From positions 2,466,001 to 2,530,000 of the forward strand of contig NZ_CP026095.1 in assembly GCF_004006295.1 (NCBI RefSeq): a DNA stretch of 64,000 bases, given 5' to 3'. The notes below the pieces were generated by a model, which was not told the DNA's origin, did no database searches, and worked only from the letters and a program-made list of their open reading frames with translations. This document shows, one piece after another, positions 49,513-64,000 of this stretch. Every line of letters begins with the position of its first letter. Positions within the stretch are counted from its first letter, which is position 1. The position numbers and the translations under genes were made by a program. Origin of the DNA: Peribacillus asahii. GTDB taxonomy: Bacteria; Bacillota; Bacilli; Bacillales; DSM-1321.

Positions 49513-50013
49513 TTATTCATTTATTTCAAAGACCAATATATCAAATAACTTTTCATCGGTATAAAGTAACATCGCCCAATCTCCCGACTCTTGTATTTTT
49601 ACATTAGAAGGAATATGTGCATCAGCACCATTGTTTGGGCTACCAAGTCCCTTAGTCCAACCATCTATAAAAATCTGATGAACAGCTTCTGTTTCTTTAT
49701 GAAAACCGACAACCGTTAATTCCTTGTTTTCTGGTACTTCAACTCCCCAAAGATGCCACATCCACTTTTGACCGTTTAAACTTGGCATATCTGCACCAAT
49801 AACACCTGATCTATTTTCATTTCCAATAATATTTCTATCACCAAACTCAACCGCTTTCTTTTCCCAATTGGTTTTTTCAAAATCACTTACTCGAACAAAA
49901 TCAGGAATATCTTCAGGTAAGGCGATTTCTTTTTTTACTGTTTTATCCGATGTACAAGCTACTAAGATAAATAACATAGCAAATAAAGTAAGTATCAACT
50001 TAATTTTTTTCAT
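49513..50013 (-). CDS. DUF4871-like lipoprotein
   Basis: 166 residues. Lipoprotein signal peptide with lipobox LVAC (Cys at about 20), then a beta-rich domain with GDRNIIGNENRSGVIGADMP, KWMWHLWGVEVPENKELTVVGF (landmark WMWHLWG) and HIPSNVKIQESGDWAMLLYTDE. It should be anchored on the outer face of the membrane. The family occurs in Bacillus and has no known function. Confidence 0.75.
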   Translation of the reverse strand: MKKIKLILTLFAMLFILVACTSDKTVKKEIALPEDIPDFVRVSDFEKTNWEKKAVEFGDRNIIGNENRSGVIGADMPSLNGQKWMWHLWGVEVPENKELTVVGFHKETEAVHQIFIDGWTKGLGSPNNGADAHIPSNVKIQESGDWAMLLYTDEKLFDILVFEINE

Positions 50014-50595
50014 AGAATCCCCCTAAATATCAATAATAATTTGTTTAATTATACCAATTTTCTGATATTTTCATTCAACTATTCTGCATCGTTAGCACAA
50101 GAAGAAAAGCTGCCTTCGATAGCAGCTAGATCTTAAACATAAGCACCCGTTCACTTAAGTACAATTATTCACAAATTTATAGCAAATAGCTGATTCTTTT
50201 TACAGGAAAGCGCTCGTTAATTAAATACTATCAGATCCTCATTATAGCGAAATTAGGAATCCAGTTTCATTCTGTTTATTTTACGATGTGAAACAAGTCC
50301 CCCCCTTCTATTTGTGTTGTCTAGCATTGATTATGAAACGCTTTTTTGAACATATATAATAATCGCTAATCAAAAATCCAGGACTTTAAAATGGTAAAAT
50401 TGCATGATTTTTTATTATAATAACAGTGGTATTATTTGTTAATAAGTACTTACTTGCACTCTTTCATTCAAAGGGGGGTTGCTATTATTCTATTAATTAT
50501 GATTATAAGGTTCTAATATCTTGTCATGAAAAGACTAGTTTTTAGAGTACATTGCTCAAGTTTGAACAATCAGTCTGGAAATTCCACAATTAATA
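50014..50595. other. Intergenic region with repeat-like sequence
   Basis: The stretch 50140-50235 (CACCCGTTCACTTAAGTAC ... GCGCTCGTTAATTAAATAC) is a diverged relative of the dispersed repeats at 39307 and 43958. A 32-codon frame at 50525 without a ribosome binding site runs through the BlaI operator and is not credible. Confidence 0.45.
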
Positions 50596-50612
50596 CACTA
50601 CAATATGTAGTG
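50596..50612. promoter_or_regulatory. BlaI/MecI-type operator upstream of blaI
   Basis: CACTACA, 3 bp, TGTAGTG: a perfect 7-3-7 dyad containing the TACA/TGTA core bound by BlaI and MecI. It lies 14 bp before the start codon, so autorepression is likely. Confidence 0.9.
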
Positions 50613-50625
50613 GAAGGTGAGTAAA

Positions 50626-51042
50626 TTGAACATTAAGAACTTTAAATATAACGAAGCTGGCCTTCAGCGCTTCTTCGGTCCTTTAGAATCAAGAATCATG
50701 GAGATTCTCTGGGATGGAAGAGAACGAAGCATTAAAGAAGTCCTGCATCATTTAGAAGATGACAAACCAATTAATTTTAATACGGTTATGACTGTAATGA
50801 AGCGGTTAACAGACAAGGGTATTTTAGAAAAAAGAATGCAAGGAAGACTTTCATTATTCCGTCCTATTCAATCAAAAGAAGAATTTATGGAAGAACAGTC
50901 GAAAAAATTAACAGAAAATCTTCTTGATGAATTTGGTGGTTTAGTTATCAATCATATGCTTGATGCCATACAAGATGTAGATCAGGAATTACTGGATAAA
51001 TTAGAACAAAAAATTAAACAATTAAAAGGAACAAAGCCATGA
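50626..51042 (+). CDS. BlaI/MecI/CopY family repressor
   Basis: 138 residues from a TTG start that follows GGAAGGTGAG; a GTG at 50617 falls inside that site. Winged helix: LQRFFGPLESRIMEILWDG, SIKEVLHHLEDD, NFNTVMTVMKRLTDKGILEKR. The C-terminal helical dimer domain begins near KEEFMEEQSK; family repressors are cleaved there when the membrane protease signals. Matching operators sit before this gene and before doxX. The stop overlaps the next start (ATGA). Confidence 0.92.
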   Translation: MNIKNFKYNEAGLQRFFGPLESRIMEILWDGRERSIKEVLHHLEDDKPINFNTVMTVMKRLTDKGILEKRMQGRLSLFRPIQSKEEFMEEQSKKLTENLLDEFGGLVINHMLDAIQDVDQELLDKLEQKIKQLKGTKP

Positions 51043-51899
51043 GATGGTGGAAGAATAAATCTATATTTATCATAAGCTTAAGTCTGTTGATTACGATTCT
51101 TGTTTGGAGCCAAATCGGGATGTATCTGGCTCATGTTCTTTTAGGGACAAACCTAGAGAAGAATCTTTTTACCCTTTGTCTCAGTTTGTTTGATGAAAAT
51201 ATATCTATTCAATTCATAATTAGTATGTTTTTAAATGTATTAATTGCTTATACGATATTGATGACACTTATTAAAATTAGGCACCAATATTTTTTATTGA
51301 GAAGGTTTAAAAAGAAAATTTCTCAGATGGTTGATACCGATTTGACAAAGCTTCTAAATAGAAAATTCCATAGGTATAAATCGGATATCCTGGTCATTCA
51401 AGATCATCAGCTACTAGCTTTCACAATAGGATTTAGAAAATCTAACATTGTCCTTTCTACAGGTTTAATCGAAATCCTCGAAGAATATGAATTGAATGCA
51501 GTCATTGAACATGAAACATCCCATCAAAAAAACAATGATTCGCTCAAGATTTTTACCCTGCAGCTTATTTCACAGACTATATGGTTTATTCCACTGACCA
51601 AATGGGCTTATCAGAATTATAAAATCATCAGTGAGTTATTAGCTGATCAATATGCCATTCATAAAACGGGTTCCGAAGCAGCATTAGGAAGTGCGCTGTT
51701 AAAATTAATTAAACATCACTTTAACAGAAAACCCTCTCCTGTACTGGCTCATTTCTCAGATGAATCGGTAAACTACAGGCTGAAACAATTAGTGAATCCA
51801 CATCAGGCTATTCCAATAAAGCTGAAAACAACTTCGATTATGGCTTCGGTCCATATAATGCTTCTTATGACGGTTATGATTCTAGTGACTATGAGTTAA
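51039..51899 (+). CDS. M56 family membrane metalloprotease (BlaR1-like, no sensor domain)
   Basis: 286 residues with membrane segments at about 8-28, 60-80, 175-190 and 262-284 and a cytoplasmic zinc-protease loop: NAVIEHETSHQKNND carries HExxH, and ELLADQYAIH the third ligand. Preceded by LAFTIGFRKSNIVLSTGL, typical of M56. Unlike BlaR1 and MecR1 it has no C-terminal penicillin-binding sensor, so the inducing signal must be sensed otherwise. Coupled to the BlaI-like gene, which it presumably cleaves. Confidence 0.9.
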   Translation: MRWWKNKSIFIISLSLLITILVWSQIGMYLAHVLLGTNLEKNLFTLCLSLFDENISIQFIISMFLNVLIAYTILMTLIKIRHQYFLLRRFKKKISQMVDTDLTKLLNRKFHRYKSDILVIQDHQLLAFTIGFRKSNIVLSTGLIEILEEYELNAVIEHETSHQKNNDSLKIFTLQLISQTIWFIPLTKWAYQNYKIISELLADQYAIHKTGSEAALGSALLKLIKHHFNRKPSPVLAHFSDESVNYRLKQLVNPHQAIPIKLKTTSIMASVHIMLLMTVMILVTMS

Positions 51900-51924
51900 T
51901 AGTCACAGTTTTTCTGTCTTAAAC

Positions 51925-51941
51925 ACTACATAATGTAGTGT
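51925..51941. promoter_or_regulatory. BlaI/MecI-type operator upstream of doxX
   Basis: CACTACA, TAA, TGTAGTG: the same 7-3-7 dyad as at 50596-50612, differing only in the central 3 bp. It lies between the protease stop and the doxX ribosome binding site. Confidence 0.9.
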
Positions 51942-51965
51942 AATAATTTATTGAGAGGAGAATGA

Positions 51966-52403
51966 ATGATGAAAAATACTCAAGAAATCGGTTCACTTTT
52001 ATTAAGGCTAATACTAGGATTTACCTTCTTTATGCATGGGTTGGATAAATTCCAGGGCGGTGTTGAAAATGTTGCGGCGGGGTTTCCTGCCATGGGGTTG
52101 CCTAGTTTTTTAGCCTATATTGTTGCGACCATTGAATTAGTGGGCGGGATTGCGTTAATTTTAGGTTTTGGGACAAGAATCTTTGCTGGTTTAATGGCGT
52201 GTATCATGCTGGGTGCGATCTTATTCGTGAAGCTAGACAGTGGCTTTCTGGGAGGATTCGAGTTTGATGTTGCTCTACTAATCATCGCTATCCAACTACT
52301 CTTAAACGGAAGCTCACTATTAGCATTAGATTCCAAACTGCCACAAATAAAGTTATTTTCTACACAAACCATCCCTGACGACACTAGAAAAGGGATCAAT
52401 TAA
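51966..52403 (+). CDS. DoxX family membrane protein
   Basis: 145 residues with four membrane segments. Family motifs: LLLRLILGFTFFMHGLDKFQGG, GLPSFLAYIVATIELVGGIALILG and FDVALLIIAIQLLLNGSSLLAL. DoxX-like proteins are linked to thiosulfate/quinone chemistry or oxidative stress complexes; the precise role is unknown. GAGAGGAG is upstream. Its own BlaI-type operator makes it the output gene of the regulator pair. A related fragment lies at 37645. Confidence 0.92.
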   Translation: MMKNTQEIGSLLLRLILGFTFFMHGLDKFQGGVENVAAGFPAMGLPSFLAYIVATIELVGGIALILGFGTRIFAGLMACIMLGAILFVKLDSGFLGGFEFDVALLIIAIQLLLNGSSLLALDSKLPQIKLFSTQTIPDDTRKGIN

Positions 52404-52433
52404 AAACAAAATCGTAAACGCGACCTTATTTCC

Positions 52434-52462
52434 GTCCCAAGTGAAGTGAAATCACTTGGGAC
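52434..52462. terminator. Terminator of the blaI-M56-doxX unit
   Basis: GTCCCAAGTGA and TCACTTGGGAC pair perfectly across a 7-nt loop and are followed by CTTTTTAG. Confidence 0.93.
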
Positions 52463-52662
52463 CTTTTTAGCTCTTTATATTGTTACACTCCCCTTAATAC
52501 TACTCGAGAATATCTAAAAAGCACTTTAATGAGCGGATCTAATATTCCTTAAACTAGTAAAAATCAATACGACTTAATTTTAAAATAACCTTACAGAATC
52601 TTGTCCATTTGGCAGAAAGTAATCACTACACCCAATCAAAGTTTTCAAAATTATTCTGGGAA

Positions 52663-53424
52663 TTATTTTTGTTTTGCAGCAAAAAACTCTGCTATTTTTT
52701 CCTGAGGAACCCCCGTACTAAACGATAAAGCAAATTGGTTCATACTATCTTGAATCGCAGTATCGAGTGAAGTATTCTGCCACGTTTCAAAAAGGACTTT
52801 TTGCTGTTTGATAGTAACTCTATGATTTACAGCAATTCTGCGTGCAAAAGATTCAGCAGTTGCTTTCAATTCAGATAATTCTACCAGTGCATTCAAAAAA
52901 CCAAACTGATTTATTTCCACTGCGCTGACAGCGTCACCTGTAAGCAGCATCTCTTTTGCACGGCTTAGCCCAATGTGCTGCTGGAGCAAAACAGAATCTA
53001 AAACAGATGGAATACCTAACTTTATCTCCGGCATAATAAAAACTGAATCCTTGGCAGCTACTCGAATATCAGCTGCCATTGCAATTTCCATTGCCCCGCC
53101 TATACAGTAGCCATTTATAGCTACAACTACAGCTTGTGGAATTTTACGAACCAGTTCACAGACCTGCTTTAATAAAGAAATAAGTTCATATCCAGTTTGT
53201 GGAGTTAGACCTACAAATTCATTGACATCCATTCCTGCTGAAAATGATTTCTCTCCGCTGCCAGTTATAATGACAACGCTTACTTGTTCATTATTCTTTA
53301 ACATTTGCAAATGTTCAATAAGATCTATTAGCATATCTCTCGATAAGCAGTTTGCTTTAGCAGGGTTGTTTAAAGTAATCCATTCAATATTTCCTTCTCT
53401 TTCAAACAATAATTTTTGACTCAT
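52663..53424 (-). CDS. Enoyl-CoA hydratase/isomerase family protein
   Basis: Crotonase-fold protein of 253 residues acting on an acyl-CoA. ITLNNPAKANCLSRDML, VVIITGSGEKSFSAGMDVNEF (first oxyanion-hole strand) and VVAINGYCIGGAMEIAMAADIRVAA (second) are clear. Glu in MPEIKLGIPSVLDSVLL takes the position of one catalytic acid; the second (usually GLVN-E) is not evident in FGFLNALVE, so hydratase activity is not certain. It stands alone. Confidence 0.88.
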   Translation of the reverse strand: MSQKLLFEREGNIEWITLNNPAKANCLSRDMLIDLIEHLQMLKNNEQVSVVIITGSGEKSFSAGMDVNEFVGLTPQTGYELISLLKQVCELVRKIPQAVVVAINGYCIGGAMEIAMAADIRVAAKDSVFIMPEIKLGIPSVLDSVLLQQHIGLSRAKEMLLTGDAVSAVEINQFGFLNALVELSELKATAESFARRIAVNHRVTIKQQKVLFETWQNTSLDTAIQDSMNQFALSFSTGVPQEKIAEFFAAKQK

Positions 53425-53702
53425 GAACGCTCTTCTCCCCCTTGAAATATTCTAGTACTATTTGCCACAAAGAAAAAACCCACTTATGGAATATTATTAC
53501 TATTTATATCAAAATTCTTTTTTTCTAGAAAGTCAACATTTTATATAAAAATCCTAAACATATAACTAAACGTACAATAAAGCGATAATGTTTTCATGAA
53601 AAGATTTACTATCCTCAATATCCCACCACTGGTACAAGTATACTAATGACGTCTTCTGTTTATTTATGATACATTTAGTCTCGTAGTTGATGAACAACTA
53701 AA

Positions 53703-54106
53703 CATGAAATGGTGAGTAGTCGCGGCTCATGGTTTACATGAGTTGAGGAAAGTCCAGGCTCGCCCGGCGCTGAGATGCCCGGAGTGTTCTTGCCATCTGT
53801 AAAGGTGGGCAGCAGACTTCGTATCTGCTGACGGCGGAGAAATCATGCTAAGTCCAAAAAGGATATGCTGAGAGTAACCTTAAAGTGCCACAGTGACGAA
53901 TTCTTCTGGAAACGGAAGAAGTGGAACGAGGTAAACCCCAAGAGCGAGCAACCCAAATTTAGGTAGGGGCACCATCCAGCGGGAATAACGAACTAAAAGG
54001 ATGGATTGATTGAACAAATCAATAGTTATATGACTGCACCTGGTTGTGCGAGATTGGCATCGTTATTAGCACACAGGAACAAAACCTGGCTTATAGCCAT
54101 TTCATG
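53703..54106 (+). ncRNA. rnpB: RNase P RNA, Bacillus type (class B)
   Basis: The catalytic RNA of RNase P, which matures tRNA 5' ends. Conserved core pieces in order: GAGGAAAGTCCAGGCTCGCC, GCGCTGAGATGCCCGGAGTG, AAAGTGCCACAGTGACGAA, GTGGAACGAGGTAAACCCC, GAGCGAGCAACCCAAAT, TAGGGGCACC and GGAACAAAACCTGGCTTA. The ends CATGAAATGG and CCATTTCATG form P1. All landmark regions are present, so it looks functional. A TATGAT -10 lies about 35 bp upstream. Usual neighbours of rnpB in Bacillus (gpsB region) are absent. Confidence 0.95.
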
Positions 54107-54255
54107 AGCCGAATTCATCAATGCGCTTATGCTAAATAGCAATAACCATTATCGTTCGGTTGTAGCTCTTATTAGAAATAAGATAATCGGTCAACTAGGG
54201 ATAAATCCCTTCGAGTGTGCCGTTTATTCACATAGAATATAGTCTAGCTCATACA
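54107..54255 (+). other. Spacer between rnpB and scr with hairpin potential
   Basis: Contains CTTATT-AGA-AATAAG enclosed by GTTG...CAAC (about 54158-54198) and AGGGAT-AA-ATCCCT (about 54197-54211). No open frame. It could be a processed spacer, a terminator region or an unrecognised RNA; a TATAGT -10 for scr lies near 54238. Confidence 0.4.
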
Positions 54256-54524
54256 TACCGTGCTAGATGGGGAGTTGGCGGTGCCCTGTAACCCGCAATC
54301 CGCCGTAGCGGGGTTGAACTCCTATTTGAGGTAGGAACATGTGAGGTCTGCCTTGTGAAAGCAGTGTTGACAATTGGGTCCTACGCAATGGAAACCTACG
54401 AAATTGGTCAGGTCTGGAAGGAAGCAGCCATAAGTAGTGATTTCGATGTGCCGTGGGGCAGCCTAATTAGAGCTAGCTTCCATAAGTAACGCTTGGTTGT
54501 TTCTATCAATGATAGGTGCACGGT
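54256..54524 (+). ncRNA. scr: Signal recognition particle RNA, Bacillus long form (scRNA)
   Basis: RNA scaffold of SRP, binding Ffh and targeting membrane proteins. Terminal pairing ACCGTGCTAG / GTGCACGGT; the Alu-type part GGCGGTGCCCTGTAACCCGC, the GGGTCCTACGCAATGG block, and the SRP54-binding hairpin TGGTCAGGTCTGGAAGGAAG then CAGC are present. Length about 269 nt agrees with B. subtilis scr. In Bacillus, scr normally lies by dnaX; here it is 150 bp after rnpB. Confidence 0.95.
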
Positions 54525-54640
54525 GTTTAATTAATATGTAATGATTGTCAAATCGTTTAATACTATACTTCCCTGACTTTTACATACTCGATATTCGTAC
54601 AAAGTGCATGTTAAATTCAATGGATACTATACTTGCTGCT

Positions 54641-54853
54641 TTATTTTATACATTTATAATTTTTATGATTAACCACTATTTTTATCGGTTCATCTGTTTG
54701 TGGTTTTGTCCCAACTTTGACAATCACAGAATTTTCCCGCACTGTTAAAACTTCTCCCTTCTTACCTTTCTGTTCACCTTTTATTACTTGAATAGTTTCT
54801 CCTTCCTTCGCCTTTTTAATTTCACTCTTACCTACTGTTTTGTCTTCTGTCAT
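54641..54853 (-). CDS. DUF2187 (KOW-motif) protein, YkvS-like
   Basis: 70 residues. A KOW-like beta strand: AKEGETIQVIKGEQKGKKGEVLTVRENSVIVKV (landmark GEQKGKKGEVLTV), characteristic of the small DUF2187 proteins such as YkvS. A strong AAGGAGG site precedes the start. The function is unknown; KOW motifs suggest RNA or ribosome contact. Confidence 0.85.
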   Translation of the reverse strand: MTEDKTVGKSEIKKAKEGETIQVIKGEQKGKKGEVLTVRENSVIVKVGTKPQTDEPIKIVVNHKNYKCIK

Positions 54854-55037
54854 TTTATTTCCTCCTTTATTAAGGGAATACTCCTTTTATTGCACTAATA
54901 AGTTGATGAGCTTTATTTATAAGCTTATCCTTCCCCATATGTATTTTTTTATCATTTGGCTCTGATAAACTTTAATGTTGATATTGCATAAAATTAAGGG
55001 GAACCTATTTATCAAAGATTCCCCATCCTTTTGAAGC

Positions 55038-55427
55038 CTATTTATTGATTAATTCTGTACCATATGAGTTATCAATTGCACAAAGCCATTCGCCTTGTGG
55101 ATTCTTCTTAAACACGTATGTTGCCCTTCTATCCATTGAATATTCCGAATCCTCTTTATCAGCATCAAGTAGCGTTTGAGATAAAACTAAAGCAGTATCT
55201 CCTGCTTCTAAAATAATCATTTCTCCTTGTGTTGGTACAATACTGTTATTAAAGTATTTTGCAATTGCAATAAATGCTTTTTTGATTTCCTCTTTGCCTT
55301 GTGCAATCATTCCAGGCTTTATCACTAAAATTGCATCAGCTGTATAGTAGTTCATCAATGTATCAAAATCTTCTTGCTTTATTGCAAGGTCACACTTTTT
55401 AATTAGCTCTTTTAATTCGTGTTCCAT
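55038..55427 (-). CDS. NTF2-like fold protein (SnoaL/DUF4440 group)
   Basis: 129 residues: [64 protein letters not shown] and [24 protein letters not shown] (landmarks only). The curved-sheet pocket fold is used by ketosteroid isomerase-like enzymes and by many binding proteins of unknown role. ATG at 55427 follows GGGAGG. Confidence 0.82.
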
Positions 55428-55539
55428 AAAATATTCCTCCCACAAATAGTATCTTGGCTAAATTTCACATCACAAACATCTGTTAAACTACCTTTTTATT
55501 ATTACTCCCGATTGTGCTGATCAGAACCTTTGAATAAGG

Positions 55540-55848
55540 ACTACACATTGAATTTAGAAAATCGTAGGCTATCATAAGTTTCTAAACCTTTTTCCTTTGC
55601 ATAGGTTTTTTAGGCTCTCCACGTATCTGTGACAAGCACTTTTTTATTGAAAAGTTTAAAACTAATTATGAACAATGGAGACACTTGAACCCTTCCTTGA
55701 AGCGAGTTTCCTTCATTTCATTGATTAAACGACCACCAACAGAGAAAAAAAGCTCAACATAGCGTTTAATCCATTGATATACTTGTTCTTTTTTGGTGTG
55801 TGGTAATTTGTCAATATATTTTAACAAGTTACTAAACGCTTTGCTCAC
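55540..55848 (-). pseudogene. IS1595 family transposase remnant
   Basis: The N-terminal part (55848-55666) has LPHTKKEQVYQWIKRYVELF and the start of the zinc ribbon RFKEGFKCLHCS. After a deletion, about 55640-55555 encodes VLVTDTWRA, stop, KTYAKEKGLETYDSL, which is the DDE-domain segment of the same family. The catalytic core and the ends are gone. Confidence 0.78.
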
Positions 55849-56213
55849 CCCCCTCCCCTAAATATTAGTTCTTATATTGATTATATTAAAGTTCAGAGTG
55901 GCATCATATATCAACATTTATCTTTAACAGAGCCTATCATTTAGATATTTTTTCAGGAACAGCACAATTATATTTTTTAACTTTGAAAGCAAGTAAACCT
56001 AAAATAAATTCGAAAGACCCAGTATTTCTGTTTGCTAAAATAATGATGATAAGCAAGTATAATTAGTTTTTTGCCTTTAGGGAGTAGATTCAAAGAGCTT
56101 CTCACACAAAACGGAGTCGATTTATGCAGCTAACGAGGGAAATTTAGTCGAATTAGAAGGAAATTTAGTCGAACTGTTGAATAACTTTATTATTACAAAT
56201 TAGGAGGAAAATC

Positions 56214-56588
56214 ATGAGTCGAAGTATAATATTTAAGGAAAATGAATTAATTATTAAATTTTCAGGCCTAACTGCCCTTGCAGGATTGAAGCAGGAATTG
56301 AAGATACCATATAGCTCTATAAAAAATGTCCAAGCCGGAAATTTCAAATTACATTGGAATGCCTTGCGACTATTCGGCACTTCTATTCCAAAAGGTTACA
56401 AAGCAGGGCGGTTCCTGTACAAAGGACAGAAATACTTTTTATCCTATAACGACACGAATCAAGTCGTTGTCCTTGATTTAGAAGAATATGAATATGATAA
56501 AATTGTGGTACAAGTAGGGAGCCCTAAACAGATAAGAACAGCAATCTTAAAACGTTGTCCGCAACTTGTTTATGAAAAGTATCAATAA
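56214..56588 (+). CDS. Hypothetical protein with a PH-like (bPH) domain
   Basis: 124 residues, no signal peptide. Alternating strands such as KENELIIKFSGLTALAGLK, LKIPYSSIKNVQAG and FLYKGQKYFLSYNDTNQVVVL suggest a bacterial PH fold, ending with a helix (PKQIRTAILKRCPQLVYEK). AGGAGGAA precedes the ATG. Other PH-like Bacillus proteins of this kind are uncharacterised. Confidence 0.75.
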   Translation: MSRSIIFKENELIIKFSGLTALAGLKQELKIPYSSIKNVQAGNFKLHWNALRLFGTSIPKGYKAGRFLYKGQKYFLSYNDTNQVVVLDLEEYEYDKIVVQVGSPKQIRTAILKRCPQLVYEKYQ

Positions 56589-56636
56589 AAATACTATTTA
56601 TAGACAATGTAAAACAAACCCCTACTCAAAAAAGTG

Positions 56637-56950
56637 AACTGCCCCCTGTCAAGTAGACAGTGGAAATAATAAAAATGATTTAAACGACTTTAGCCCTATA
56701 CCCCATAGGACTAAGGCCGTTTAGTCATTTTTGTAATCGATCATGATTATAGAATTGTATATACTCATCCACAGCCAGACAAAGTTCTTCGAAAGTATCA
56801 TACTTATGTAAATAAGATTTTTCACATTTGATGGTTCTCTAAAAAATTCCATCTCTCCATTATCAATACACCTTCCAGCACGTGACATTTCTGCTTGATT
56901 ATATTGGCTATATATCGAGAGCAGGCTTACTTGCATACGTTGGCTTTATT
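56637..56950 (-). pseudogene. IS3 family (IS150-like) transposase C-terminal remnant
   Basis: The minus-strand text reads MSRAGRCIDNGEMEFF, stop, then KYDTFEELCLAVDEYIQFYNHDRLQ, stop, LNGLSPMGYRA, the end of an IS3 OrfB with the last catalytic Glu region. The terminal GAACTGCCCCCTGTCAAGTA near 56638 is the IS end. Multiple stops; the 5' two thirds are missing. Confidence 0.87.
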
Positions 56951-57069
56951 GCCATGAGTGCTAGAAAAGATATAAGAGCCTATTTCACGGAGGGGCTTAC
57001 GAAAACATCTAACCTATATGGCATTAGTGCGGATATAAGCCCTCTCCCATCATGAAGAAGGACTTCATT

Positions 57070-57765
57070 TTACTTCACACGTAACTTTTGATCAATTCGA
57101 ATCGTGTACTTGTCATCAAGCTGGTTCCAACTTTTGATTTTCGCAATAGTTGTATCATACTTTTTAGCCAGTTTTGATACTGTATCACCTTTTAGAACTA
57201 TACAGTATTCACAATCTTCATCATCCTTCTGCTCTTTCAAATCGAATGCTTTAACCAATCCATTTACATGGCCTTTAGCAATTGCTTCAATGAAATCTTC
57301 ACCCTTTAATTTAGCCGCATCATCTTTATTATCAATAAAACCACACTCTGTAAGAATTGCGGGCATATTAGACTCACGAAGCACATGCAAATTTCCTTGT
57401 TTTTTTCCACGGTCTTTCATATCAATCTGCTTCACAATTTCTGAATGAATCACATTTTGGTAAGCAATAGATTTAGAACTACCCGGATACACAAAATCCT
57501 CATAACCAACACCGCCGCCAGCATTAATGTGAATAGATAGGAAAAAGTCTGCTCCCCATACATTTGCGGCTTTAGTACGTTCTAACAAAGACGGATAAGT
57601 ATCTTTTGTACGGCTCATTTTCACTTCTACGTTTTCATATGCCGCTAATAATTGTTTTACTCGTTTAGCAATCCTCAAGGTTAAATCCTTTTCGAGCAAT
57701 CCATTTCCAACTGCTCCTGAATCTTTCCCACCATGACCTGCATCAATAAAAATTCTAACCATCAT
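57070..57765 (-). CDS. Phage-type N-acetylmuramoyl-L-alanine amidase with LysM domain
   Basis: Endolysin of 231 residues cutting the MurNAc-Ala bond. Amidase_3 domain (1-175): FIDAGHGGKDSGAVGNG (zinc His), SLLERTKAANVWGADFFLSIHINAG (second His) and MPAILTECGFIDNKDDAA (catalytic Glu). A C-terminal LysM repeat (about 185-231), CIVLKGDTVSKLAKKYDTT, binds the wall. No signal peptide, consistent with holin-dependent release. The start overlaps the end of the holin relic (ATGATG), and a decayed homologue is at 59112. It seems the only intact lysis gene here. Confidence 0.92.
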   Translation of the reverse strand: MMVRIFIDAGHGGKDSGAVGNGLLEKDLTLRIAKRVKQLLAAYENVEVKMSRTKDTYPSLLERTKAANVWGADFFLSIHINAGGGVGYEDFVYPGSSKSIAYQNVIHSEIVKQIDMKDRGKKQGNLHVLRESNMPAILTECGFIDNKDDAAKLKGEDFIEAIAKGHVNGLVKAFDLKEQKDDEDCEYCIVLKGDTVSKLAKKYDTTIAKIKSWNQLDDKYTIRIDQKLRVK

Positions 57766-57950
57766 TTATTCCCCCTTTCATCTATAATCATTTGTTTAAT
57801 TTCAGAAACATCCTTAACTAAAGAAGAAAATACCTGGGCTTGCGCTCCAATAACCGATTAGTTCTTATCGATGGCTTCTTAATATTTATCTTCACGCTCT
57901 TTGTTATTTTTCATTGTACTAAACAATATTCAAACAAACAAAAAAGCATA
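57762..57950 (-). pseudogene. BhlA/UviB-type holin relic with three nonsense codons
   Basis: The frame reads YAFLFV, stop, ILFSTMKNNKEREDKY, stop, EAIDKN, stop, SVIGAQAQVFSSLVKDVSEI, KQMIIDERGNK. Restoring Trp, Gln and Gln (TGG to TGA, CAA to TAA twice) gives a normal BhlA-like holin. The N-terminus is lost at the junction with the glnA-tail copy. It precedes the amidase as in phage lysis cassettes. Confidence 0.87.
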
Positions 57951-57958
57951 ATCGCCCA

Positions 57959-58075
57959 ACATTAAAAAAAGCCCTGATACTAGAAATATCAAGACTTTGA
58001 ATAGTGTAAAATTGAGATTGATAGTTTTCAATTTCCCATAAATGAACAGCCGTGCGGTTTTCATTCTCTAACATA
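57959..58075. repeat. glnA 3'-end copy 1 (most diverged)
   Basis: Matches the last 16 or so codons of glnA and its terminator with about a dozen differences; on the minus strand it reads RTAVHLWEIENYQSQF. The upstream 17 bp (ATGTTAGAGAATGAAAA) are shared with copy 2 but not with native glnA. Interpreted as a phage attachment-site relic. Confidence 0.85.
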
Positions 58076-58118
58076 CAAAAAACAAGATTATAGATTTATT
58101 TTGGGGGATAAATTTATT

Positions 58119-59006
58119 TTACTCCTTGCTTCCTTTGCGAAAGATTCGATCGAGAAATGTTTTCTTGTTCTCAGGAGGCACCGGAAGAAAGAAACGATTC
58201 TTACTTGTTACATCAAGATAAGGTGTTAATATAGCAGTCTTCTCCTCTACAGAAGTTGCGGCATTTAGCTTTTCTTCAATTTTTGCAAAATGTTTTTCTG
58301 TCGAGCCTTTTGGCGTATAAACAAAACGCCCATCTGGAAACTCTTGTGAATCCATCGTTTCTTTTTCAGTATATGCATGGACAGACGGACGTGCCCAAAA
58401 AACATTTTTCCGCACCACACGTGCAGGACTTCCCGCAACTGCTACATTTGATGGGAGCGATTTTGTCACGAGCGACTTTGCACCTAAAATTGAACCTGTA
58501 CCAACTTCTACTCCTTTTAGAATCATGACGTCCTGCCCAATCCAAATGTGGTCACCTAAGTACACACTCTTTGTTGGGTTAATCCGTTTTCGAGTTGTTC
58601 CATCGTACATTAAATGTGGGTCTGCCAAACGAACGACTACACCACTTGAAAACATATTATCATGACCGATGAACAGATTCTTTTGCTCAGAGAGAATAAA
58701 TCTCGCTGCTCCATTAAATGAATAGTTGCGACCAAGGAAAAATGTATTATCATTCCAAACACTGACGCTCATCGTTGCATTATGATTTGATTTCCCAATG
58801 ATGATGAGCGAGTTGTTACGATTAAAATTTAGCGTTGCATTTTGAATTTTGGCTCCACGTTCAATAATTAACCGATTTCCTTTACCAACAAAATTGATTT
58901 TGCTATTTACAAACGAAATCTCATCTTCAGTATTTCCTATAAAAAGTATTTCATTATCCGTTTTCGGTTTCTGTGATATTTCAGAAATAGTTTCCATGCT
59001 GTTCAT
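58119..59006 (-). CDS. Hexapeptide-repeat acyltransferase (possible phage cargo)
   Basis: 295 residues. A left-handed beta-helix runs from about 30 to 200 (FVGKGNRLIIERGAKIQNATL, NNSLIIIGKSNHNATM) and ends with SVYLGDHIWIGQDVMILKGVEVGTGSILGAKSL, the active-site face (landmark DHIWIGQDVMIL) of WbbJ/maltose O-acetyltransferase-type enzymes. The 95-residue C-terminal extension is basic/helical. The ATG at 59006 follows AAAGTGGG; a TTG at 59072 would extend it. It sits between two att-like repeats, so it may be phage-borne surface-sugar modification cargo. The frame is intact. Confidence 0.82.
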   Translation of the reverse strand: MNSMETISEISQKPKTDNEILFIGNTEDEISFVNSKINFVGKGNRLIIERGAKIQNATLNFNRNNSLIIIGKSNHNATMSVSVWNDNTFFLGRNYSFNGAARFILSEQKNLFIGHDNMFSSGVVVRLADPHLMYDGTTRKRINPTKSVYLGDHIWIGQDVMILKGVEVGTGSILGAKSLVTKSLPSNVAVAGSPARVVRKNVFWARPSVHAYTEKETMDSQEFPDGRFVYTPKGSTEKHFAKIEEKLNAATSVEEKTAILTPYLDVTSKNRFFLPVPPENKKTFLDRIFRKGSKE

Positions 59007-59111
59007 ACCCACTTTCAAAATGTTAAAAACGTGTTTATCTAAGAAGAAATTTAAAAAAGAGATATATCGCAATAATAGAAAGCTGTATTCGATACTAGCA
59101 TATTGGTCCCT

Positions 59112-59500
59112 TCACACGCAACTCCTGGCCAATCTTAATGGTATAGTCATCATCAAGTTTGTTCCAGCTTTTGGTTTGCTGCCGTACTCTTTAGCAAGCT
59201 TTGGTACGGTATCACCTTTTATGACTGTGTGATATTGATTTTCGTCCACTTTTTTCTTTTTTAGACTAAAACATTTAACCGAACCATTAACATGTCCTTG
59301 GGCGATATCTTCAATAAATGCGACCTTTTTCAAAATAGCAGCTTCATTAGGATTAGAAATACAAAGGCTTTCCGTCAGTAAAGCTAGCATATTCGTTGTT
59401 CTTAAAACTTGTAGATTCTTTTGTTGTGGTAAACAACCTCCAAACAAAAAAGCATAACCGTCCTCTTTTAAAAACAGATTAAAAATTTGCTCATCTATAG
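59112..59500 (-). pseudogene. Fused holin-amidase relic
   Basis: The frame begins with a BhlA-type holin start, DEQIFNLFLKEDGYAFLF, then jumps by deletion to the amidase middle, PQQKNLQVLRTTNMLALLTE, and continues to the LysM YHTVIKGDTVPKLAKEYGSK before a frameshift. The catalytic half is gone and the zinc/Glu motif is mutated. It is the decayed homologue of 57070-57950. Confidence 0.87.
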
Positions 59501-59541
59501 TAAAAAGATTGAAGAAAGCACAATGAATAAATTTGAAAATT

Positions 59542-59656
59542 ACATAAAAAAAGCCCCGATATCAGAGATATCAAGGCTTTGAATAGTTTAAAATTTAGAT
59601 TGATAGTTTTCGATTTCCCATGAATGAACAGCTGTACGGTTTTCATTCTCCAACAT
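59542..59656. repeat. glnA 3'-end copy 2
   Basis: About 99 bp identical to the native glnA end and terminator except for three substitutions, then 17 bp (ATGTTGGAGAATGAAAA on the minus strand) shared only with copy 1. It separates the holin-amidase relic from the terminase/integrase block. Confidence 0.92.
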
Positions 59657-59726
59657 AAAAACAATTCAAAGTCCTTATAAACCCCGTTTAATATCGCGAT
59701 TCAATAAATGCCCTCAGCAAAATAAA

Positions 59727-59915
59727 TCAAAATGTATAATTAAATCCTGGCTCGTTATCCTTAGATACAGCAAAATTGGATAAAACCGAAATCATAGTGG
59801 TTTTTCCGTTTTTTCGACCAATAAAAATAAGGCCCTCACGAAAGCGCCTATAACCTGTATCTTTATGGAACCAACCATACAGGGAACCAATGACAAAATG
59901 TTGCCACGGCTGCAA
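59727..59915 (-). pseudogene. Phage terminase large subunit fragment
   Basis: The TTG-initiated frame QPWQHFVIGSLYGWFHKDTG and REGLIFIGRKNGKTTMIS is the N-terminal ATPase region of a phage terminase (Walker A-like GRKNGKT). It stops after NFAVSKDNEPG, where other DNA joins, so ATP hydrolysis and nuclease domains are absent. Confidence 0.88.
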
Positions 59916-59917
59916 AA

Positions 59918-60004
59918 CTAAGCTTGCGAATATTTCTCCAATTCAGCTTCTACAGCTGTTTGTTTCGCTTTTCTATCTAATTCAGGTAATTCAAAGCTCA
60001 TCAT
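59918..60004 (-). pseudogene. ArpU-type phage late regulator, N-terminal fragment
   Basis: MSFELPELDRKAKQTAVEAE and LEKYSQA, then stop; this is the usual start of ArpU family late-gene regulators. GGGGGAT precedes it. The remainder is deleted and the frame runs into the terminase fragment. Confidence 0.65.
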
Positions 60005-60053
60005 ATCCCCCATTTCTCAGGAACACCCTGAGCCGCAACCCAGGGCAAAAAGA

Positions 60054-60176
60054 TTAATGTTTGACTGCTGCATCCTCCATATCTAGTTGTCCAGGAGGAA
60101 CACTTACTTCTCCGTTGTTATCGATGGTATACTCCACACCTTCATGTGGATCTTCATAAAACTCCTCAATGCTCAT
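60054..60176 (-). CDS. Small phage-like protein
   Basis: 40 residues, MSIEEFYEDPHEGVEYTIDN then GEVSVPPGQLDMEDAAVKH. Acidic, no motif recognised. Its start overlaps the stop of the next upstream gene (ATGA), suggesting coupling in a phage operon. May be a fragment. Confidence 0.5.
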   Translation of the reverse strand: MSIEEFYEDPHEGVEYTIDNNGEVSVPPGQLDMEDAAVKH

Positions 60177-60457
60177 TTGAGATGGTTATAAACCAAGAGA
60201 AAATTAGTTCCGGCAAACGGGTAGAGTTTGTTTACTTTACCTTCTGTATCACGTTTGATGTTAAACTTTAAAACAATTTTCTTATTATCACGTTGGATTG
60301 ATACGAATTCAGCTCCAACTTCGCTTTCTTCCACAGTAATAAGAGTGATAGAACCAGGCTTTTTTAAAAGCTCATCAACATGCGATAATTCATTACTTAC
60401 AACATGGAACACTAAAACCTCTTTTTTATCATCTTTTGATTTTTTTAAATAATACAT
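60173..60457 (-). CDS. Phage-like protein of unknown function, possibly frameshifted at its start
   Basis: 94 residues, beta-rich with a Lys/Asp-rich N-terminus (YYLKKSKDDKKEVLVFHVV) and VEESEVGAEFVSIQRDNKK. Another ATG with AAAGGAG (at about 60483) reads MKMAKIQ and then leaves this frame, so the true start may have been lost by a frameshift. Family not recognised; position between nuclease and ArpU relics fits a phage early/middle gene. Confidence 0.5.
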   Translation of the reverse strand: MYYLKKSKDDKKEVLVFHVVSNELSHVDELLKKPGSITLITVEESEVGAEFVSIQRDNKKIVLKFNIKRDTEGKVNKLYPFAGTNFLLVYNHLK

Positions 60458-60637
60458 TCAGTTGGATTTTTGCCATTTTCATATTCTCCTTTAAATGCCC
60501 TTCTAAGGCGTTTTATAGTTTAATAGACCAATTGTATTCAGGTTGTAAAAACTCTTGAATTTACCCCTATTCCATCCTGTCTATATATGTCAAAACGTGT
60601 CGAATTTAGTTATTGGCGAGTTTTAATGGGCTGTTTG

Positions 60638-60805
60638 TTAATCAACCTCGATAGCAACTATGTTGTATTTTGATTTATGTTTGTTTTCGTGCGTTCTCTA
60701 AACTTTCTACCAAACAGTTTTCGGTTTAACTCCTAGATATTTCGCACATTCATCCGTTTTTCCAATGAATATTAAATCTTCGCCTTTATAAATTGCATAA
60801 TCCAT
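60638..60805 (-). pseudogene. Small phage protein with two stop codons
   Basis: MDYAIYKGEDLIFIGKTDEC, AKYLGVKPKTVW, stop, KV, stop, then KSKYNIVAIEVD. The first 32 codons match a small phage protein type that recurs in Bacillus prophages; two in-frame TAG codons interrupt it. Confidence 0.65.
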
Positions 60806-60966
60806 TCTTCGCTTTCTCAATAAGTGTTTCAAACCCCTTTACCATATAGTTTTGGCCCACTGTTTCTACGAAATGTGCAGTAATAAAACCAATTAATGGT
60901 TTTAAAATCTCCCCTCATTTATGTTAACCTTTATATAAATGTAGTTTACATACAAGGAGGAGAAAA

Positions 60967-61155
60967 ATGACTCTTAACGTACGATTTTTTATAACTATCG
61001 TTACAGCGATTTTATTTGTAATTCTTGTGTTCATGAATTTTTTAGGATTTTGGAAAGCTAACTCAACAATACAAATTCTTTTTTTCTTTATTATGGTCGC
61101 AGCGATTTTCAATGCAGGTATTGTAACTAGTGAAAAACTAAAAATCAAAAGCTAA
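60967..61155 (+). CDS. Small two-span membrane protein
   Basis: 62 residues: FFITIVTAILFVILVFMNFLG and ILFFFIMVAAIFNAGIV as two membrane spans with a basic end. AAGGAGGAG lies six bases before the ATG and the gene is intact and opposite in direction to the phage relics. An imperfect dyad (TGTTAAC...GTTTACA) upstream may be an operator. Function unknown; possible phage or superinfection membrane protein. Confidence 0.7.
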   Translation: MTLNVRFFITIVTAILFVILVFMNFLGFWKANSTIQILFFFIMVAAIFNAGIVTSEKLKIKS

Positions 61156-61200
61156 TCGAGAAATTCCAATTGGCTTTTTTACCGTGCACCATGTGTCTAC

Positions 61201-61749
61201 TTAGCCATTGAACCTACTTCCACGACGACCATTTTTATAGTGAGGCTTTTTCTCTTTAGCCATTTCATCTTTCAGAGACTTGATCATCCGTCTTAAATGT
61301 TTGATAGTTTTGTCCTTGTTAATGTTTGCCCGTTTAAGCTGCCTAACAAAGCTTTCGGATCATACTTACTTCGATACATACCATTCAATATTTTCTGATA
61401 GCCTTCCAGGTCTTCCACAATCAAGACGAATGGATTTTTAGAAGCACGTATTAATTCATTTTCAAAACGAGTACGGTCTTTGATGCTTTCCACAAGCTCA
61501 TCGACACCATTTTTACGTTCCAATCCTGCTGTTAAATAAATATCCCTTGTAATACCCATTTCGATATTTTTAGGAATCATGGCCGAATAATCACATGTTT
61601 TCATGGTTCAAATTTTGAATGGCACTTTTTTTGCGAAAATAATCAAGTACATGCTGGTTTTTCTGCTCCCTGGTATCCACAATAATTTCTAATGTGTTCA
61701 GGATTGTTTTGAATCCTGTGTCTGAGTATCTGTAATGGATAGTGTTCAT
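61201..61749 (-). pseudogene. Phage ERCC4-type nuclease, frameshifted
   Basis: The start at 61749 (GGAG upstream) reads LEIIVDTREQKNQHVLDYF, the XPF/ERCC4 nuclease motif. After a frameshift at about 61600 it continues TCDYSAMIPKNIEMGITRD, ERKNGVDELVESIKDRTRFE and VEDLEGYQKIL. A second frameshift near 61310 leads into KDKTIKHLRRMIKSLKDEMA, the end of another phage protein. Residual pieces of 71 and 103 residues are open but lack a complete domain. Confidence 0.87.
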
Positions 61750-61750
61750 A

Positions 61751-61936
61751 TTAGGACTCCATAGCTTCTTGAATTTTTTGTTTAATTTCCTCATAAGTCC
61801 CTTCATGTCTAATTATTTCTACACCTGTTGGATATTCAACAAAGATTTGATCATCTAAAACAGATATGATTTTATTTACATTTATTAAACGCGAAGAATG
61901 ATAACATTTTTCGAATACTTCTATAAATCCTTTCAT
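61751..61936 (-). CDS. Small phage-like protein
   Basis: 61 residues, KGFIEVFEKCYHSSRLINVN and FVEYPTGVEIIRHEGTYEEI, ending KQKIQEAMES. AAAGGAG is ten bases upstream. It is compactly arranged with the ERCC4 gene (two-base gap) as in phage early operons. No function known. Confidence 0.65.
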   Translation of the reverse strand: MKGFIEVFEKCYHSSRLINVNKIISVLDDQIFVEYPTGVEIIRHEGTYEEIKQKIQEAMES

Positions 61937-62088
61937 CCCATCACTACTCCTTTCTTGAAATAAACCATCGCTCGTTCAAAAATTTCTTTAGATAATTTAT
62001 CTATTACTTTATTCTCATAGTTGCAAATTGGCTCCGATACTTTATTCCATCCGTTATATGAAAGTTCAATAGTCAATTCCATAACCAT
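61933..62088 (-). CDS. Small phage-like protein, probably 5'-truncated
   Basis: 51 residues, MELTIELSYNGWNKVSEPIC and KVIDKLSKEIFERAMVYFKK. Its end overlaps the start of the next gene. There is no ribosome binding site before the first ATG, and the upstream DNA belongs to the integrase relic, so the 5' part may be missing. Confidence 0.5.
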   Translation of the reverse strand: MVMELTIELSYNGWNKVSEPICNYENKVIDKLSKEIFERAMVYFKKGVVMG

Positions 62089-62099
62089 CTTGGGGAACG

Positions 62100-62803
62100 A
62101 TTAAGTCGGGAAACGGTCAAGATTGTACACAGTACCATGCACAATGCATTCGAAAAGGCTGTAACACTTGGAAAAGTTTCTAAAAATCCGTGTAATGGTG
62201 TAGAAATTAAAGGAGAAAAAAAATAAAAGAGAAATACAATTCATTGAATCTGAACATATCTCGCACTTTTTAAAAGAATCCTATCAATATGGATATATTT
62301 ATTGGATTTTCTTTAAAGTGTTGATTGAAACAGGAATGCGAAAAGGGGAAGCTGCTACTAACAACCCTAACGAAATGTTTATCAGTACCAAAACAGCTAA
62401 TTCTGTGAGAGTCGTTACGATTAGCTAAACTCTTGCTAGTGAGTTACATTTTCAGAAGAAATATCAAAATCAAAATAAACTCTCTCTGAAAGAGAATTAT
62501 CACCACAACTTAAATTTAGTTCTATGCTGCAATGATGGCAATTACATGCCTAAAACAAGTTTATTTAATGCCTTTTCTAAAATTCTCAAAAAGTGTGGGC
62601 TTCCTTCTTTACCTATTCATTCTTTGAGACATACACACGCGGTTTTACTTCTGGAAGCCAGGGCAGATATGAAATATGTCCAAGAACGATTAGGTCATAG
62701 TAGCATTCAAATCACTTCTGATGTGTATTCGCATATAAGTAAAACAATCGAAATGGATAGAATGGACAAATACGAAGAGTATATGAAAAACATACTCAAA
62801 TAA
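62100..62803 (+). pseudogene. Phage integrase (tyrosine recombinase) relic
   Basis: Order of a normal Int: the core-binding helix RETVKIVHSTMHNAFEKAV, GKVSKNPCNGVEIKGEKK, a stop and frameshift, then FIESEHISHFLKESYQYGY, the Arg box IETGMRKGEAA, a deletion, a stop after VRVVTIS, and the intact C-terminal 85 residues with HSLRHTHAVLLLEA, VQERLGHSS and the nucleophile Tyr in DVYSHIS. It points at the glnA-tail repeat 73 bp beyond its stop, the normal int-att arrangement. Confidence 0.92.
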
Positions 62804-62875
62804 TCACTTTTTAAATAAAATCGGGCAAAAATCGGGCACTCAAAAAAATAGGCGGAAAACTATTCGAATCGCCCG

Positions 62876-62974
62876 ACATAAAAAAAGCCCCGATACCAGA
62901 GATATCAAGGCTTTGAATAGTTTAGAATTTAGATTGATAGTTTTCGATTTCCCATGAATGAACAGCTGTGCGGT
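62876..62974. repeat. Native glnA 3' end, copy 3 of the att-like repeat
   Basis: Last codons of glnA (RTAVHSWEIENYQSKF) plus its terminator, duplicated at 59542 and 57959. The integrase relic lies on the terminator side. Confidence 0.9.
62887..62913 (-). terminator. Terminator of glnA
   Basis: AGCCTTGATA and TATCGGGGCT pair across a 7-nt loop and are followed by seven T on the minus strand. Confidence 0.92.
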
Positions 62975-64000
62975 AGCTATCCCATTCTGCTTTTTTCATA
63001 GAAACATATTCGTTATATACGTGATCGCCTAATGCTTTATAAGCAAATTCGCTTGATTCTAATTCACTGATTGCTTCCTTTAAGCTACCAGGTAAGTTGT
63101 CAATTCCGAGTTCCGCTTTTCTTTCTTCTGTCATATGGAAGATATCTTCATTAATCGGAGCTGGTGCTTCTAACCCTTTTTCGATTCCATCTAAACCTGC
63201 AGAAGCAATGACTGCGAACGTTAAGTAAGGGTTAGCTGATGGATCTGGACAGCGCAATTCCACACGTGTCGCAAGACCTTTTTTCGCTGGAATACGAATA
63301 AGTGCTGAACGGTTAGAAGCAGACCAAGCAAGGTAACAAGGTGCTTCATAGCCTGGAACTAAGCGTTTATAAGAGTTTACTAACGGATTTGTTACTGCCG
63401 CAAAGCTCTTCACGTTTTCTAGTACCCCTGCAATAAATTGATACGCTTTTTCGGATAATTGCAACTCATCTGAAGGATCAAAGAATGCATTTTCGCTGCC
63501 TTCAAAGAATGACATATTTACGTGCATACCAGAACCGTTGATTCCGAATACTGGCTTTGGCATAAATGTAGCATGCAGTCCGAATTTCTTTGCAACGGTC
63601 TTCACGACCCATTTATACGTAGTTGATCGGTCTGCTGCAGTTAGTGCATCTGCATATTTAAAGCTAAGTTCATGTTGCCCTTCTGCTACCTCATGATGAG
63701 ATGCTTCAATCGTAAAGCCTATCGCTTTTAAAGCACGGTAGATTTCTAAACGAACACGTTCTCCAAGATCATGTGGTGATGGTTCGAAATAGCCTGCTTT
63801 ATCGCCAAGTTCTCGAGTTGCATAACCGTTTTCATCCGTTTTAAATAGGAAAAACTCTAACTCAGGTCCTACTGAAATCGTAAAACCTTTATCAGCTGCA
63901 CGTTCCATTGTTTTCTTTAGTACATTTCTTGTATCTCCCTCAAAAAGAGTTCCATCTGGGTTTTTTACAGAGCATAAGAATCGTGCCTCCGAATACCCTT
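62922..64000 (-). CDS. glnA: Type I glutamine synthetase (partial, N-terminus outside window)
   Basis: ATP-dependent synthesis of glutamine from glutamate and ammonia; also signals to GlnR and TnrA in Bacilli. The C-terminal 359 residues or so are present. Motifs: ISVGPELEFFLFK (metal Glu), EVAEGQHELSFKY, KPVFGINGSGMHVNMSFF (ATP/glutamate loop), VNSYKRLVPGYEAP, NRSALIRIPA and VELRCPDPSANPYL. The Gram-positive GSI-alpha form lacks the adenylylation Tyr loop. The last 16 codons and the terminator double as the att-like repeat, so part of this end may be of phage origin. Confidence 0.96.
   Translation of the reverse strand, partial: GYSEARFLCSVKNPDGTLFEGDTRNVLKKTMERAADKGFTISVGPELEFFLFKTDENGYATRELGDKAGYFEPSPHDLGERVRLEIYRALKAIGFTIEASHHEVAEGQHELSFKYADALTAADRSTTYKWVVKTVAKKFGLHATFMPKPVFGINGSGMHVNMSFFEGSENAFFDPSDELQLSEKAYQFIAGVLENVKSFAAVTNPLVNSYKRLVPGYEAPCYLAWSASNRSALIRIPAKKGLATRVELRCPDPSANPYLTFAVIASAGLDGIEKGLEAPAPINEDIFHMTEERKAELGIDNLPGSLKEAISELESSEFAYKALGDHVYNEYVSMKKAEWDSYRTAVHSWEIENYQSKF

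Follow-up and report, generated by a model that had tools for sequence, protein, structure and literature searches.

Why should the end of a glutamine synthetase gene occur three times in one stretch of DNA? The sequence analysed here (64,000 nucleotides from a Peribacillus close to P. asahii, hereafter the window) contains two extra copies of such a gene tail, i.e., of the last 16 codons and the terminator, in addition to the native one (Table 1). The initial annotation had described three copies of about 99 bp together with a 17-bp extension that is common to both extra copies and absent from the native one. Two repeat-finding tools indeed recover all three copies on the same strand, and a scan of the window with the extension pattern TTTTATGTTRGAGAATGAAAACCG (up to three mismatches) finds it solely beside copies 2 and 3, with no occurrence in 100 shuffles. 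Copy 2 differs from the native tail by 3 changes and copy 3 by about 12, and on their upstream side the two share the same phage-arm sequence. The gene itself had been taken for glnA; it does encode a glutamine synthetase, though not the main glnA gene (GS1), which adjoins a MerR-type regulator gene elsewhere in the genome (end near C1:1819930), but a second, paralogous one (GS2).

Table 1. Features at the GS2 end of the window (positions are those of the window)
Feature	Positions	Strand	Evidence
Open amidase-LysM endolysin gene, probable prophage 3 relic	57070..57765	-	Pfam Amidase_3 (E 2e-51), LysM
Copy 3 of GS2 tail with arm extension, probable prophage 2/3 junction	57959..58078	-	89% to native over 109 bp (57950-58058), E 7e-34
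Open hexapeptide-transferase ORF, probable prophage 2 cargo	58119..59072	-	Pfam Hexapep; PHROGs of unknown function
Prophage 2 relic, amidase endolysin remnant	59112..59447	-	Pfam Amidase_3 (E 5e-6), PHROGs endolysin
3' end of second integrase gene, abutting copy 2	59498..59551	+	94% over 54 bp to P. abyssalis integrase gene
Copy 2 of GS2 tail, junction of two prophages	59542..59640	-	97% to native over 99 bp, E 1e-41
P arm (far end) of prophage 1, contains the 17-bp extension	59639..59744	.	Within 199-bp, 80% match to inner side of P. abyssalis attR
Prophage 1 relic, large terminase fragment	59727..59915	-	Pfam TerL_ATPase (E 1.5e-11), PHROGs
Prophage 1 relic, phrog_5494	60173..60457	-	PHROGs, E 1e-30
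Prophage 1 relic, ERCC4-type nuclease, two pieces	61293..61806	-	Pfam and PHROGs
Prophage 1 relic, phrog_9698	61933..62088	-	PHROGs, E 8e-15
Broken tyrosine integrase gene 1, directed at GS2	62074..62803	+	Pfam/PHROGs integrase
P' arm, core to integrase, GGGC/GCCC motifs	62804..62876	.	Arm alignments to P. abyssalis and G009
Native GS2 tail and terminator, putative attL core	62876..62974	-	Repeat finding; intact-looking P. abyssalis prophage flanked by same repeat
3' part of GS2, running off the window	62922..64000	-	Pfam Gln-synt_C, E 3e-135

Tyrosine integrases that act at tRNA genes or at the 3' ends of other genes restore the gene end with a copy carried in attP, and tandem insertion at such sites is possible. 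Judging from the sequences, related temperate tailed phages have very probably integrated repeatedly at the GS2 3' end and later decayed. The repeats would then be attachment sites at which a tyrosine integrase recombines with the 3' end of the glutamine synthetase gene, and the attP of each phage would carry the final codons of this gene along with its stop and terminator, so that the gene is still whole after insertion and its tail recurs at the distal end of the prophage. In this way, at least two and probably three prophages would have come to lie one behind another at GS2 before their decay, with the third now mostly deleted. The proposal of tandem integration at the glnA 3' end made in the initial annotation thus holds up with two amendments, i.e., that the target is GS2 and that no outer tail copy (attR) was found to the left of the third element within 50000-64000. 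The GS2 frame is open through its stop in both the window and Priestia abyssalis, so the reading frame would be restored on insertion. Restoration of the gene end by an attP copy is common to known 3'-end integrases and the window, which differs from them in having a glutamine synthetase gene as target and an integrase clade that uses two paralogues.

The initial annotation had named an intact element with a glutamine synthetase tail at both ends as an observation that would support its reading. Such an element is present in P. abyssalis (NZ_KV917369.1), where an intact-looking tailed prophage sits at GS2 between identical 93-bp tail repeats that lie 45.3 kb apart. It resembles the window in target gene, terminator type, P' arm, and attR arm, and its integrase is the closest to that of the window. 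Unlike the window's elements, however, it is intact-looking, contractile-tailed, and single, and most of its other genes have no match to the window relics. The integrase relic that had been noted as pointing at the native copy from 73 bp away is borne out by the end of the C-terminal piece of integrase gene 1 at 62803, 73-74 bp from this copy; the pieces of this gene show 88% and 72% identity with the integrase of P. abyssalis, and one TAA lies within it. The adjacent P' arm matches its P. abyssalis counterpart in 64 of 74 columns and that of a GS1-tail phage in G009 in 63 of 75, while identity to the shortened GS2 arm of P. asahii (52/74) is not above that of the best GS1 arm. The second integrase remnant (59498-59551) had been missed in the first reading of the sequence.

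Copy 2 aligns with the far-end repeat and inner arm of P. abyssalis at 80% over 199 bp on one side and meets an integrase 3' end on the other (94% over 54 bp). With phage DNA on either flank, the alignments show it to be a junction of two prophages. Copy 3 is probably a more decayed junction of the same kind. This third insertion is less sure since the sequence left of copy 3 consists, by eye, mostly of holin-like (lysis-gene) codons, with a short GGGCGATT match at the join, and no integrase remnant was identified in this flank, likewise read by eye; a candidate P' arm stub left of copy 3 was dropped, the region being mostly holin-like codons.

Such arrays also occur in relatives. Extra GS1 tails lie downstream of GS1 in 20 of 37 genomes (15 of them with matches of at least 48 bp), and integrase sequence follows most of the extra tails in the relatives' arrays. 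The upstream gene body, used as a control, was single-copy in 38/38 positive genomes, three weak matches aside. As for GS2, the comparison with relatives suggested earlier found empty sites that have neither the arm nor a terminator of the window type (G018, G023, G048, G055, and, as a fragment, G002). P. asahii has neither copy 2 nor copy 3, which counts against the proposal. One could still explain the window by a single insertion at GS2, with copy 3 deriving from a later rearrangement inside the decayed prophage region, and the lack of an identified integrase remnant beside copy 3 and of the outer attR would fit. We consider this unlikely given that copy 3 is more diverged from the native tail than copy 2 yet carries the same phage arm, that copy 2 already joins two elements, and that arrays of at least three tails occur at GS1 in 7/37 genomes.

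All DNA between the copies had been called phage-like. This is true of the terminase, ERCC4 nuclease, endolysin, and unknown-function relics, which match PHROGs, but an open hexapeptide-transferase ORF is also present; it, too, matches PHROGs of unknown function, and its dN/dS is about 0.23 in comparison to P. asahii. To the left of each extra copy there is amidase sequence, repeated in register (75% over 68 bp and 81% over 37 bp), a point in favour of duplication of a GS2 tail-holin-amidase cassette of one prophage by ordinary recombination. However, the amidase regions are only about 75-81% alike compared to 88% for the tails and arm of copies 2 and 3, which makes such a duplication very improbable together with two further observations for which tandem integration is preferred: far-end arm and integrase 3' end lie on opposite sides of copy 2, so that integrase sequence comes first after this copy where the cassette would have none, and the repeated tails of relatives mostly have integrase sequence next to them as well. 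An in-frame ATG shortly ahead of the common codons in copies 2 and 3 and in the P. abyssalis attR would fit expression of the phage-borne tail as a small peptide acting on glutamine synthetase. This is hardly credible, as the stop codon is lost in copy 3, the ATG is missing in a GS1-type copy (L052) and in GS1 is a Met codon of the gene itself, and gene restoration accounts for the codons.

Across 43 family genomes, the integrase clade was found beside a glutamine synthetase tail at 22 of 24 places (all except L055 and L057), and in an order-wide survey with positive searches in 58 genomes, it lay at a glutamine synthetase 3' end in 29 of the 30 loci examined. Recombination at these tails would be the work of the clade's integrase. 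Nearly all members use GS1, and the GS2-users (L113, win_int1, and L045, the window's own integrase locus) form one branch among them with an SH-aLRT of 94, in a tree made by a quick method without bootstrap in which 13 rows fill less than half of the columns and the branch of L057 is long. These data support a clade that mostly targets GS1 and a window sublineage that uses GS2. The latter apparently switched to the paralogue and carried a GS1-type terminator along. More broadly, it seems reasonably likely that the clade has kept to the glutamine synthetase 3' end across many Bacillales genera while this sublineage moved from GS1 to GS2 by placing a GS2 tail before the old GS1-type terminator and arm, and that phages in this way overwrite the final codons and the terminator of their hosts' glutamine synthetase genes and pile up there through repeated insertion.

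A phage or plasmid with the tail in its attP had also been proposed as a check, and we found both, with GS1-type tails only. In Bacillus phage SPbetaL5 (OQ921345.1), the last 19 glnA codons adjoin a same-family tyrosine integrase that is 58% identical to the clade's C-terminal piece, though this 127-kb Spbetavirus is otherwise unlike the window, i.e., unrelated overall as far as tested. Similarly, a glnA-type tail adjoins an integrase of the same family in a circular Bacillus glycinifermentans plasmid record (NZ_MF996511.1). Searches of phage collections with the two GS2-type copies gave short matches alone (best E 0.06 and 0.2).

An earlier study describes the Bacillus anthracis prophage LambdaBa01 as bordered by 65-bp repeats and able to excise, as judged by PCR, with prophages at the same locus in Bacillus cereus ZK and ATCC 14579 (PMC1475869). 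Its empty-site primer matches the glnA1 codons just upstream of the core with 21-24 of 28 bases in 5/8 loci and with 18-19 in 2/8, with no match in the remaining one (1/8; shuffles 16-17). From this match, we infer that LambdaBa01 is located at glnA, a gene that the main text of the paper leaves unnamed (PMC1475869), and its target would be the main glnA as opposed to GS2 in the window. A literature search of titles and abstract beginnings, covering few subscription journals, found none that names glnA as a site of phage attachment.

The 3' end of a conserved metabolic gene would thus be a recurrent, stacked prophage site in Bacillales. It is a clear case of one integrase lineage on two paralogues for which related versions of attP are available, which makes it testable how integrases change att specificity. 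The results also suggest that phages can supply the terminators of glutamine synthetase genes in this group and that programs for finding prophages should allow for arrays of several elements at these sites.

The P' arm pattern occurs at nine loci in genome contigs, of which three are relatives (L088 in P. asahii, the G009 record L093, and L096 in P. abyssalis), and at one locus in viral contigs (L097) with the same att sequence as L093. We took the other six (L089-L092, L094, and L095) to be chance matches; tblastn gave no integrase match at L089, L092, and L095. The one checked of four matched Listeria records (L099) was likewise set aside as a glnA gene that has a terminator of its own and lacks an integrase match. 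At L092, from a Thermotogaceae MAG, the end of a distant glutamine synthetase gene (39% identity) lies about 550 bp from the pattern.

Three same-strand copies of a glutamine synthetase tail and terminator were recovered in the window, as the initial annotation had described, by repeat finding as well as by a DNA search of the whole genome. The extra 17 bp that it saw on both added copies was also recovered, as an upstream extension common to copies 2 and 3 that the native tail lacks. The annotation had named the repeated gene glnA, and it is indeed a glutamine synthetase, but a paralogue (GS2), while the main glnA (GS1) sits beside a MerR-type regulator gene elsewhere in the genome. In relatives, the GS1 and GS2 proteins are ca. 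55% identical, and GS2 of the P. asahii relative (G021) is 98-99% identical to that of the window.

Coordinates of the glutamine synthetase tails and associated phage features
Feature	Position	Comparison
Native GS2 tail and terminator	62876-62974	
P' arm (phage sequence between core and integrase)	62804-62876	
Copy 2	59542-59640	97% over 99 bp with native tail
Far repeat and inner arm	59547-59744	80% over 199 bp with P. abyssalis (ca. 105 bp being arm)
End of integrase gene	59498-59551	94% over 54 bp with P. abyssalis
Hexapeptide-transferase ORF	58119-59072	dN 0.026, dS 0.111, ratio 0.23 with P. asahii relative
Copy 3	57950-58058 (57959-58078)	89% over 109 bp with native tail; 88% over 120 bp with copy 2 (repeat finding)
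Second relic, window genome (G000)	C1:2044900-2046063 (L109:8901-10063)	early phage genes, 92% over 763 bp with window

Priestia abyssalis bears an intact-looking prophage at GS2, where the GS2 tail is present twice (93 bp, 100% identity, 45.3 kb apart) and a 384-aa integrase between the tails ends ca. 76 bp from the first of them. Among ten inter-tail proteins tested, the families matched were integrase, repressor, helicase, large terminase, major head protein, tail sheath, tape measure, baseplate and endolysin, and the endolysin lies close to the end away from the integrase, as in the window. Copy 2 matches the far-end arm of this prophage on one side and the end of its integrase gene on the other, with the P' arm missing between tail and integrase end. 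Copy 2 is therefore flanked by two different prophages, an arrangement with the structure expected of a tandem junction, and the initial annotation, right in its observation, was right in the main in reading it as tandem integration at a glutamine synthetase 3' end.

Leftwards from GS2, the relics of prophage 1 comprise integrase 1, phrog_9698, an ERCC4 nuclease, phrog_5494 and a terminase; copy 2 is followed by an integrase 2 remnant, an amidase relic and the hexapeptide-transferase ORF, and copy 3 by an open amidase-LysM gene. In the P. asahii relative, the native site, the arm and the transferase region are all present, along with a portion of prophage 1, and at least part of the array therefore probably predates the split of the two lineages; copies 2 and 3 are both absent from its locus. 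The transferase ORF remains open among decayed phage genes and is possibly retained prophage cargo (dN/dS for comparison: 0.04 for GS2, 0.11 for a neighbouring gene).

A C-terminal integrase piece of a GS1-adjacent prophage, searched against 43 genomes of the family, gave 26 matches in 20 of them, i.e., 24 separate places, since in each of G032 and G016 a single gene was matched in two pieces. A glutamine synthetase tail adjoins the integrase end at 22 of the 24 places, in five of which the tail alone was seen (L036, L040, L042, L052 and, at a contig end, L033); L055 and L057, both in G009, have none there. With the P. abyssalis integrase as query, 58 of 397 genomes of the order, spread over 33 of 135 genera, had matches at E <= 1e-60. 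Among the 30 loci returned, to which this count is limited, tblastn placed a tail at 29 (28 GS1-type, the sole GS2 being P. abyssalis itself). At L141, the sequence stops 181 bp beyond the integrase, with a degenerate tail by eye. Six of 15 viral-contig loci have a GS1-type tail, eight of the 15 being uninformative since they end 3 bases past the integrase; L157 (35% identity) lacks one.

Free forms show the same association: the last 19 glnA codons adjoin an integrase of the same clade in SPbetaL5, and 18 GS1 codons do so in a circular 33-kb plasmid record of B. glycinifermentans, arrangements that look like attP. The latter record (NZ_MF996511.1, L158) holds a phage repressor, an antirepressor, the integrase and the GS1 tail and, named a plasmid, is perhaps an excised phage circle. 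In a third match (Cytobacillus spongiae), the integrase adjoins a full annotated glnA.

Integration at gene ends and tandem prophages are familiar phenomena. For LambdaBa01 of B. anthracis, 65-bp repeats and low-frequency excision have been described (PMC1475869); the empty-site primer from that report matches glnA codons directly upstream of the core, so prophage use of glnA is apparently not new as an event, and the main text does not name glnA. Our literature searches found no publication naming glnA as such a site; what is new, on that literature, is how broad the association with glutamine synthetase is, how frequent arrays are and that a paralogue is used.

A 91-bp GS1 tail matched 84 places in 39 of the 43 family genomes, compared with one strong match apiece in 38 genomes (plus three weak ones of 22-46 bp) for the 91 bp of gene body immediately upstream. 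Same-strand tails up to 120 kb downstream were counted in the 37 genomes with an assigned native tail, which excludes 14 matches located on another contig or strand or at another distance. One or more additional tails are present in 20 of these genomes and two or more in seven (15 and seven by hand count for matches of at least 48 bp). Integrase sequence comes after the extra tails in G013 and G009; the match is weak at the outer tail of G013 (17 residues, E 0.007) and doubtful at the outermost tail of G009 (closest piece ca. 1.6 kb away). The window genome's own GS1 has no further same-strand tail within 120 kb downstream.

The window and P. abyssalis integrases group on a single branch (SH-aLRT 94) within GS1-targeting ones, consistent with a switch of target from GS1 to GS2. 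The window P' arm is about equally close to the GS1-tail phage arm in G009 (63/75 columns) and to the P. abyssalis arm (64/74), with 41-52 for six other GS1 arms and 52 for the shortened GS2 arm of the P. asahii relative. By eye, a GS1-like terminator is common to the three GS2 loci that have phage arms, whereas five arm-less ones (one a gene fragment) have unrelated sequence at that position, from which we infer a phage origin of the terminator. At G002:C9 (L022:16648-16800), a match confined to the last 51 GS2 residues (67%) without a phage arm is either a GS2 fragment or a strongly diverged end. The second relic in the window genome combines the same early phage genes with a GS1-like tail; its position, ca. 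225 kb away from GS1, is not that of any glutamine synthetase gene.

In the P' arms of several loci, including the window's, a GGGC-type motif is present once in forward orientation, and GCCC-type motifs lie in reverse orientation. A Thermotogaceae MAG (L092) has an exact 20-base match to the arm pattern ca. 550 bp away from the end of a distant glutamine synthetase; it has no integrase match beside it and is probably due to chance. By eye, the arm motif varies with integrase sublineage (GGGC, GGGT or GGTC), as if arm sites changed along with the integrase.
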